Source: Clostridiaceae bacterium (GTDB lineage: Bacteria; Bacillota; Clostridia; Acetivibrionales; DTU013). From it: a stretch of 38,768 nt of DNA. A model generated the notes under the pieces. It saw only the letters and a list, made by a program, of their open reading frames with translations. It was not told the origin of the DNA and did no database searches. Of the stretch, positions 10,995 through 33,091 are shown piece by piece. The stretch lies in the NCBI GenBank assembly GCA_012519745.1, contig JAAYPO010000049.1, forward strand, positions 1 through 38,768. Direction: 5' to 3'. Both the position numbers and the translations under genes were made by a program. How positions within the stretch are numbered: position 1 is the first letter of the stretch; each line of letters starts with the position of its first letter.

Positions 10995-11023
10995 TTTACA
11001 TTTTTTAATTATATTAATATAAT
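10995..11023 (+). promoter_or_regulatory. Strong sigma-A promoter for the T-box transcript
   Basis: TTTACA (10995-11000) and a perfect TATAAT (11018-11023) are 17 bases apart. Transcription should start around 11030, about 20 bases before T-box stem I, as expected for a T-box leader. Confidence 0.8.
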
Positions 11024-11044
11024 ACTATCTAATGATTAAGTGCA

Positions 11045-11343
11045 AAAACAAATGCTGTGAAGAGGGATAGTAAGCTATCAAAATGCATCAGCAGAGAGCC
11101 CTGTTGGTGGAAAAGGGTGTTGCAGATATAGCTGAACAGGCCTTGGAGCATTGCACCGAAAAGCATCGTGCCCAGTAGGCTGCAACGGAAGCAACCGTTA
11201 TATTGCATGTCACTTTCCGAGGGAGATGCAAACCCTTTGGAAGTACTTAAAAGGCCTATGCTGTAAAGCAATGGCGAACCGGGGTGGCACCACGAAGCAC
11301 AGCTCTCGTCCCCAGGAGATATTCCTGGCGATGAGAGCTTTTT
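11045..11343 (+). promoter_or_regulatory. T-box leader upstream of the MetRS-like gene
   Basis: Stem I closes by AATGCT (11051-11056) with AGCATT (11147-11152). It has the AGTA strand (11069-11072), the distal AGAGAGCC and GGTGGAAAA elements, and the opposite GAA strand (11134-11136). The T-box proper reads GGGGTGGCACCACG (11281-11294), with UGGC as the bulge that pairs with the tRNA acceptor end. A terminator follows at 11301-11343. The bases after GAA are CAGG; by position the specifier reads CAG or AGG, and no AUG is present on that strand. UGGC predicts a G discriminator base. The class is certain; the amino acid is not. Confidence 0.92.
11301..11343 (+). terminator. T-box regulated terminator
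   Basis: AGCTCTCGTC (11301-11310) pairs with GATGAGAGCT (11330-11339), with an inner CCAGGA/TCCTGG stem, and is followed by TTTTT. The 5' arm lies directly after the T-box sequence, so antiterminator and terminator are mutually exclusive, as in other T-box leaders. Confidence 0.9.
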
Positions 11344-11381
11344 ATTTATTCAATGCGATAACATTAATTGGAGGTAGGATC

Positions 11382-13409
11382 ATGAAAGAGGATAGAACAT
11401 GTACCGCCGCTAGACCGGCATTCCCCAAGAGGGCTGTTGTTACAGCCGGAATGCCATATGGCAATAAGGAGCTTCATCTTGGGCACATCGGGGGTGTATT
11501 TGTTCATGCGGATACCTTTGCAAGATTTTTAAGAGACAGGATAGGAAAGGAAAATGTGATTTTTGTATCGGGAACTGACTGCTACGGCTCTCCAATACTG
11601 GAAAGCTACAGACAGCTGGTGGCCGATGGAGATTTTGAGGGAACCCTGGATGACTTTGTCCTGATGAATCACAACAAGCAAAAGGATGTACTAAATAAGT
11701 ACAATATCAGCAATAACCTTTTTGCAGCATCAAGCATAGGAAGGGCTTCGGAGATCCACCATACGTTCTCTGACTGGTTCATCACTACGCTATATGATCA
11801 TGGACACCTTCAAAAGATCACAACTCTTCAGTTTTTTGATACGGAAAGGCAGGTTTTTCTCAATGGACGGCAGGTCACCGGACGCTGCCCTATTGCAGGC
11901 TGTTCGTCAGAAAGAGGCTATGCGGATGAATGCTCTCTGGGTCACCAGTATATGCCCTCAGAGCTGATAAATCCGATAAGTGCGCTGTCAGGCAAGACAC
12001 CCGAAATGAAGGAAGTCACCAACTGGTACTTTAAGCTGGAGAATTTTCAGAAGCTGCTGGAAGCATGGGTGGAGAGCATGGAAGAAAAGCCGGGTACCAG
12101 AGCATTCGTACCAAAGAGCATAAGGGAGTTTCTGGAGCTGCCTGTCATATATGTAAAAAAGGAATTGACAGAGCTTTTAGATTCCATGGCAGATGAACTG
12201 CCGGAGCATCAAATAATTGACGAAGAGAAAAAATCCTCAGTCAGGGTAGTGTTCAAGCAGCTGTCAGACAGGGAGAAGGCCTGCAAGATGCTGGCCGAAA
12301 AATCGATACGCTTCAGGACCGGAAAAACACTTGTTCCATTCAGGCTCACAGGGAACATAGAATGGGGAGTACCTGCACCAAAGCTTGAAGGTATGGAGGA
12401 TCTGACCATATGGGTCTGGCCGGAGTCCTTATGGGCACCTATATCCTTTACAATGGCATGCCTTGAGGAGCAGGGCCGCATAGAGGATGGTGCCTGCTGC
12501 GACAATACCACATGGAAGGACTGGTGGTGCTCCAGAGAATCGAAGGTCTATCAGTTCATCGGTGAAGATAATGTGTATTTTTACGGGCCTGCCGAAATGG
12601 CTATGTTTATGGCTCTCAATGAGGATGGCCCTTCAGCTGACCCTGCAGAAGGCAAGATGCAGCTGCCTGAGCTGATCGTCAACAATCACCTTCTGTTTCT
12701 TGATAAAAAAGCCAGCAGCAGCGGTGCGGTCAAACCTCCAAAAGCCGAGGAGCTGCTGGAATACTATACTGCAGAACAGCTGAGGGCACATTTTCTGGGG
12801 TTGGGTCTTGGTATCAGGAGCGTGGGCTTTCAGCCGAAGCCTTTGAACCCAAGGGCAAATGCAAGGGACAGCGATCCTGTGCTCAAAGAGGGCAATCTGC
12901 TCTCTAATGTATTCAACAGAGCAGTCCGTTCATGCTTTTACACAGTACAAAAATATTATGATTCCGTGATACCGGTGATAGATGTCAGCAGTGAGATATT
13001 GGAGGGTGCAAGGAATGTCATATTGGAATATGAGAAACTGATGTCACAGCATCAGTTCCATGTGATGATGAATCTAATGGATGACTATATCCGAGGTATC
13101 AACAAATATTGGACGAAGCTCATGCGTGAAGCAGATGACAATAATGATGCTGACCTTAGATCAAGAGTGCTTGCAGATTCCTTCCACATGGTAAAAACAG
13201 CTGCAGTGCTGATGCATCCTATTGCCCCGGAGGGCACTGAAATGATCAGGGAATACCTTGGGTTTGGAGAGGATTTCTGGAGCTGGGACAGAATTTTTGA
13301 CACAGTATATGATTATATGGATGATCCATACAGGTATAAGCTGAAATTCCTTGAGCCAAGGACAGACTTTTTCATAAAGCACCACAGCCAGCTTAAGGAT
13401 GCTAAATAG
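11382..13409 (+). CDS. Methionyl-tRNA synthetase-like class I aminoacyl-tRNA synthetase paralogue
   Basis: A 675-residue class I synthetase related to MetRS. TAGMPYGNKELHLGHIGG near residue 20 carries the HIGH-type motif, and a zinc-knuckle-like set of Cys and His occurs in GRCPIAGC and ADECSLGH. The KMSKS loop, however, reads DKKASSSG: the second, catalytically important Lys is Ser. In the anticodon domain the usual Pro-Trp after the Asn-x-Tyr helix (here INKYWTKLM) is not seen. It may charge a different tRNA, be weakly active, or act on another acceptor. The frame is open back to 11151 but crosses the T-box; ATG 11382 has GGAGGT 7 bases upstream. It is controlled by the T-box leader before it. 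Confidence 0.8.
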   Translation: MKEDRTCTAARPAFPKRAVVTAGMPYGNKELHLGHIGGVFVHADTFARFLRDRIGKENVIFVSGTDCYGSPILESYRQLVADGDFEGTLDDFVLMNHNKQKDVLNKYNISNNLFAASSIGRASEIHHTFSDWFITTLYDHGHLQKITTLQFFDTERQVFLNGRQVTGRCPIAGCSSERGYADECSLGHQYMPSELINPISALSGKTPEMKEVTNWYFKLENFQKLLEAWVESMEEKPGTRAFVPKSIREFLELPVIYVKKELTELLDSMADELPEHQIIDEEKKSSVRVVFKQLSDREKACKMLAEKSIRFRTGKTLVPFRLTGNIEWGVPAPKLEGMEDLTIWVWPESLWAPISFTMACLEEQGRIEDGACCDNTTWKDWWCSRESKVYQFIGEDNVYFYGPAEMAMFMALNEDGPSADPAEGKMQLPELIVNNHLLFLDKKASSSGAVKPPKAEELLEYYTAEQLRAHFLGLGLGIRSVGFQPKPLNPRANARDSDPVLKEGNLLSNVFNRAVRSCFYTVQKYYDSVIPVIDVSSEILEGARNVILEYEKLMSQHQFHVMMNLMDDYIRGINKYWTKLMREADDNNDADLRSRVLADSFHMVKTAAVLMHPIAPEGTEMIREYLGFGEDFWSWDRIFDTVYDYMDDPYRYKLKFLEPRTDFFIKHHSQLKDAK

Positions 13410-32903: not shown

Positions 32904-32982
32904 AATTCTTGCTGAAAACAAGAAGAATTGAATAAATGCGGATGATTGCCATGGAAGGGATACCGACTGTGTCAGGACGCAC

Positions 32983-33062
32983 CTCTGGAGAGACCGTCAA
33001 GGCGCCGAAGGGGCAAATTCCCGAAAATATCAGGGAAGCATCTCTCAGGCAAAAGGACAGAG
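32983..33062 (+). promoter_or_regulatory. Glycine riboswitch, single aptamer, upstream of glyA
   Basis: P1 pairs CTCTG (32983-32987) with CAGAG (33058-33062). GGAGAGACCG, GCCGAAGGGGCAA and CTCTCAGGCAAAAGGAC are the conserved core strings of the glycine aptamer. Only one full aptamer is visible. A terminator hairpin lies at 33092-33118. Glycine binding probably changes termination before glyA. Confidence 0.92.
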
Positions 33063-33091
33063 TAAGGTCATATAATATGTATGAGTTTCAG

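Follow-up and report, generated by a model that had tools for sequence, protein, structure and literature searches.

A MetRS-like gene behind a tRNA-Gln-sensing T-box in Clostridia, most likely encoding a class Ia glutaminyl-tRNA synthetase

Known routes to Gln-tRNA(Gln) and the locus under study

To our knowledge, only two ways to Gln-tRNA(Gln) are recognised, either a class Ib GlnRS or a GluRS combined with an amidotransferase. The formation of the antiterminator upon pairing with uncharged tRNA is established T-box biology. The 2024 AARS Online table contains no MetRS-type enzyme for tRNA-Gln (PMC11580382), and no description of the MetRS-like KASSS family analysed here was found in a search of the open-access literature.

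The window (the whole analysed stretch of 38,768 nucleotides) belongs to a 3.07-Mb assembly in 138 contigs (G000, 99.99% complete). It carries a MetRS-like gene behind a T-box of the tRNA-Gln type (Table 1), and the encoded enzyme is most likely a class Ia GlnRS that attaches glutamine to tRNA-Gln in one step. The protein resembles MetRS (class Ia) in its whole-chain fold, HIGH motif, Asp52, Trp253, zinc-knuckle cysteines and a helical anticodon domain that keeps N391 and R395, but its family differs from MetRS by KASSS, a changed pocket, the lack of Pro-Trp, an insertion of about 70 residues, a Gln specifier and metG scores under the cut-offs. With GlnRS (class Ib, TIGR00440) it has in common the proposed product Gln-tRNA(Gln), the place beside gltX and a mutually replaceable distribution; unlike GlnRS, which has a beta-barrel, its anticodon domain is of the MetRS helical type, and no sequence relationship to GlnRS was detected beyond class I. 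The indirect route (GluRS with GatCAB) would have the same outcome, the supply of Gln-tRNA(Gln), but uses different proteins, and several carriers of the MetRS-like gene are without GatB. PyrN (the MetRS-like domain of a hydrazine synthetase, PDB 9l8v) is likewise a retooled MetRS fold, in its case for glutamate; however, PyrN acts together with a cupin and needs no tRNA, and is only weakly similar to the family (E 2.7e-10). The leader has all the parts of RF00230 T-boxes and differs from them by a glutamine specifier ahead of a MetRS-like gene.

Table 1. Features of the MetRS-like locus (positions in the window)
Feature	Position	Strand	Evidence
T-box leader, tRNA-Gln type	11048..11316	+	Rfam RF00230, 106.2 bits (gathering 93), E 1.2e-22
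Specifier region: GAA, codon CAG (11137-11139), G, strand CCUU of a 4-bp helix, GGAGC	11134..11149	+	Sequence; register from other G000 T-boxes and homologous leaders
Antiterminator bulge UGGC, complementary to a GCCA 3' end (discriminator G73)	11285..11288	+	Sequence, RF00230; tRNA-Gln of relatives ends GCCA
Intrinsic terminator hairpin (11301-11339) and U run	11301..11345	+	Fold -27.3 kcal/mol, z -7.7
Ribosome binding site GGAGG	11370..11374	+	Sequence
Proposed glutaminyl-tRNA synthetase of MetRS-like type, 675 aa (ATG to stop)	11382..13409	+	Family alignment; model pLDDT 88, MetRS fold
Putative zinc-knuckle region: Cys169, Cys174, Cys184, His188, invariant in family	11886..11945	+	Alignment; zinc binding inferred
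Family-specific alpha/beta insertion, about 70 residues (251-320)	12132..12341	+	Alignment, structure model
KASSS (residues 443-447), replacing KMSKS	12708..12722	+	Invariant in 30/30 homologues

The T-box leader and its specifier codon

T-boxes were searched with the Rfam covariance model RF00230 (gathering score 93). The covariance model and the fold gave a complete T-box in the window, with Stem I, an antiterminator with its UGGN bulge and a downstream terminator, in agreement with the sequence-only reading, which had credited the leader with all T-box parts. The search returned 19 matches in G000, with as recognisable targets trpE, trpB (twice), ileS, pheS, DAHP synthase, cysE-cysS, ilvB, tyrS, metG, valS, thrS and the aspS2-gat operon. 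Registers were assigned visually from the covariance-model alignments, an automatic pattern being too loose as a control. In the leaders with known targets, the 3' strand of the specifier loop consists of the codon, one base, four paired bases and a GGAGC-like sequence, and the codon so placed is the expected one (UGG, AUC, UUC, UGC, CUC, UAC, AUG, GUC, ACC, AAC); the serS leader fits this rule only with a 5-bp helix.

Applied to the window leader, the rule gives CAG-G-CCUU-GGAGC. Because the other G000 T-boxes and the homologous leaders fix the register, the predicted specifier can be regarded as settled, namely CAG (Gln). The GAA at 11134-11136 is indeed followed by CAGG, from which the earlier reading had derived CAG or AGG, and not AUG, as specifier: CAG stood, AGG (Arg) was rejected on the strength of the register calibration and the CAA of homologous leaders, and no register placed AUG in the specifier loop.

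Homologous loci were collected by scanning genome contigs across several phyla (identities 40-69%). All 12 readable leaders upstream of family members, from at least six separate lineages, carry a Gln codon, and their specifiers vary at the third base only. The same CAG was found in three (the window, L053, L309) and CAA in nine (L076, L078, L158, L159, L162, L163, L305, L306, L322). The bulge is UGGC in nine of the 12, as in the truncated leader of L320, and UGGU in the other three (L076, L305, L306). UGGC had been taken to predict a tRNA with G at the discriminator position; this fits G73 of tRNA-Gln, and the tRNA-Gln of two relatives (G031 and G065) ends in GCCA. A point against the main reading is that no tRNA-Gln gene was found in the G000 assembly, from which other tRNAs are missing as well. 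The idea that an unusual tRNA dedicated to the enzyme is encoded next to it was dropped: none lies in the window, and Rfam models detected only a tRNA-Leu near L072 and a tRNA with a long variable arm near L084.

In the proposed mechanism, uncharged tRNA-Gln would pair with the leader at two places, through its anticodon with CAG (CAA elsewhere) of the specifier loop and through its GCCA end with the UGGC bulge; this would stabilise the antiterminator and allow production of the synthetase, which would then charge tRNA-Gln with glutamine; with charged tRNA-Gln, the terminator would form. A synthetase paralogue for another tRNA, sensed through the charging of that tRNA, was what the sequence had first suggested; all follow-up tests are in accord with this and identify the tRNA concerned as tRNA-Gln.

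The MetRS-like protein family

The AlphaFold model of the window protein (pTM 0.89; pLDDT in Table 1) matches MetRS structures over the whole chain (E. coli MetRS 8bru: Z 33.9, 523 residues, 22% identity). The metG cut-offs are not reached (NF001100, 221.8 vs 587; TIGR00398, 174.7 vs 336), and the GlnRS profile TIGR00440 gave no match at E 0.001. In the tree, the family forms one clade next to MetRS (100/100) on a long stem, and its position among the MetRS types is not fixed.

Residues were counted on an alignment of 30 homologues, with E. coli MetRS numbering for the pocket and the anticodon domain, and the roles of the pocket residues were taken from PMC10535265. Five columns of the methionine pocket differ invariantly from the E. 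coli enzyme, with M for L13, S for A256, L for P257, P for Y260 and Y for H301. P at 260 and Y at 301 were present in 30/30 family members; in the ordinary MetRSs of G000 and G065, these two positions still hold Y and H. D52 and W253 are kept in all 30, and HIGH in 29; L086 (4986-6908) reads FHYI instead. The whole family shares N391 and R395 in its anticodon domain, and R582-E583 of the window protein occupy the positions of E. coli P460-W461, which bears out the reported lack of the anticodon Pro-Trp. The insertion closes with a conserved GKTLVPFRLTGN stretch.

The replacement of KMSKS by KASSS was also correctly noted and is an invariant signature of the family. The lost second Lys had been taken as a mark of an altered enzyme, a point that did not hold: the ordinary MetRS of the genus, encoded by the metG of G000 (L021), reads KISTS for KMSKS, so this loss alone is not diagnostic, and its use as proof of altered chemistry is weakened.

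Since the side chains of Met and Gln are similar in length, a switch from one to the other is plausible. The MetRS pocket is changeable, because the MetRS-like domains of hydrazine synthetases activate other amino acids, glutamate included. If the glutamine reading is right, the family would represent a natural change of specificity from Met to Gln and of anticodon from CAU to YUG.

Distribution, exchange with glnS and alternative explanations

Among 393 Clostridia genomes, each at least 90% complete, 47 carry the MetRS-like family, and the contig scan found 20 loci, spread over Clostridia, Erysipelotrichaceae, Turicibacter, Spirochaetales, Deltaproteobacteria, Planctomycetota and Ozemobacteraceae. 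The MetRS-like gene largely replaces glnS. In genus g1, two genomes (G000 and G002) have the MetRS-like gene and only GluRS, without glnS (no glnS above the cut-off in a profile search of G000), and two (G001 and G003) have a tandem gltX-glnS without the MetRS-like gene. In genus g5, the gene is present and glnS absent in G147, G183 and G397; G049, G078 and G265 are without it, and their glnS adjoins gltX. G251 and G201 also have glnS without the MetRS-like gene.

In one set of 23 carriers, a full glnS was found in two (G122, G190) and a fragment in one (G055, at a contig edge; G055 and G022 are the same contig set); in another set of 23 genomes, glnS was found in G013 and G017. The glnS-positive comparison genomes (n=7) were picked by kinship, and the Fisher test on the first set (glnS in 2/22 carriers, the fragment genome set aside, vs 5/5; p 2.6e-4) is therefore indicative only. 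The four genomes with both the MetRS-like gene and a full glnS (G013, G017, G122, G190) speak against the main reading. The MetRS-like gene directly adjoins gltX at L070, L082, L085/L314, L313 (G162) and in G095 and G278, and is one gene away from it at L086.

Also against the main reading, most carriers retain gatB, and in these the indirect route may operate. At the level of the searches, GatB and GlnRS were both undetected in six drafts (G018, G019, G023, G024, G025, G026) and in the closed genome G318, which has the MetRS-like gene with a CAA T-box. Both were also undetected in G031, which was left out of the count and set aside as a decisive genome (72 kb of its sequence lies outside coverage and its ordinary MetRS is not visible). 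G065 (822,011 bp, zero masked bases) was read completely: it contains tRNA-Gln(CUG), an ordinary MetRS (contig C4), one GluRS, AspRS, AsnRS and the MetRS-like gene, GatA and GatB gave no tblastn match at E < 0.1, and a GlnRS query recovered GluRS alone. None of the classes in a 2014 survey of 366 bacterial genomes combines a single GluRS with the absence of both GlnRS and GatCAB (PMC3927822). Arg358 of T. thermophilus GluRS was considered as a sign of a discriminating GluRS; G065 has Arg at that column, which was not relied upon.

From the regulation, the exchange with glnS, the gltX linkage and the absence of alternatives, we infer that the enzyme aminoacylates tRNA-Gln and that glutamine is its substrate. 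It would be a second, independently evolved GlnRS, of subclass Ia and derived from MetRS, which probably makes Gln-tRNA(Gln) directly and as the sole route in some bacteria; it probably replaces the canonical GlnRS and, in some genomes, GatCAB too. Against this stands L086, which has lost HIGH in a genome (G023) where GatB and GlnRS were both undetected. If true, Gln-tRNA(Gln) would have a third enzyme lineage, GlnRS and Glu-tRNA amidation would not be the sole solutions, and an enzyme of the genetic code machinery would have been displaced by a non-orthologous one, as in the case of class I and class II LysRS; annotations would have to be corrected in about one-eighth of the sampled Clostridia genomes.

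It is unlikely that the enzyme is a MetRS-derived analogue of GluRS2, by which tRNA-Gln would be charged with glutamate and then amidated by GatCAB. The gltX linkage and the Gln T-box fit such an enzyme, as does the gatB kept by most carriers, and PyrN was solved with a glutamyl-adenylate analogue (PMC11705231), but Glu-tRNA(Gln) would be unconvertible in G065, G318 and several drafts, where GatB is absent. Moreover, the gatB operon of G000 (contig C112, L017/L092), in which an Asn (AAC) T-box is followed by an archaeal-type AspRS, gatA and gatB, tells against it; because this operon starts with the Asn T-box and the archaeal-type AspRS, GatCAB of G000 may serve tRNA-Asn.

We consider it quite improbable that the protein activates an amino acid independently of tRNA and is induced on glutamine starvation, on the model of the hydrazine synthetases, whose known MetRS-like domains need no tRNA and take Gly, Ala, Ser, Glu or Tyr as substrate (PMC11705231). 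The altered KMSKS and anticodon Pro-Trp would suit this role; however, a Pfam scan found no cupin in the window protein and seven neighbours, the gene is retained in a 0.82-Mb genome (G065), trades with glnS and adjoins gltX, and the anticodon domain has N391 and R395 in every family member.

It is very doubtful that the protein binds tRNA-Gln as a non-catalytic or auxiliary partner of GluRS: such a role would account for the gltX adjacency, the loss of HIGH in L086 and the altered KMSKS, but HIGH, D52 and W253 are kept at the frequencies given above, and genomes without GatB and GlnRS would be left without a route to Gln-tRNA(Gln). An ordinary MetRS paralogue (for drug resistance, for example) with a misread leader is scarcely credible, despite the MetRS fold (Z ~34) and the NCBIfam metG matches, against the scores all under the curated cut-offs, the Gln specifiers in 12/12 leaders, the replaced methionine pocket and the ordinary metG that was sought in G000 and found on contig C123 behind an AUG T-box of its own.

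Other regulatory elements were observed alongside. In the window, a PyrR binding site (244-358) precedes a cluster of pyrimidine genes, the end of which lies a short distance before the T-box, and a glycine riboswitch aptamer was found at 32975-33070 (51.6 bits). Elsewhere, L003 carries a T-box (1501-1772) with an apparent Ala codon GCA ahead of genes for an Lrp-type regulator and an aminotransferase, and L019 of G000 has a THF riboswitch (1915-2016, 87 bits) near a weak T-box match.
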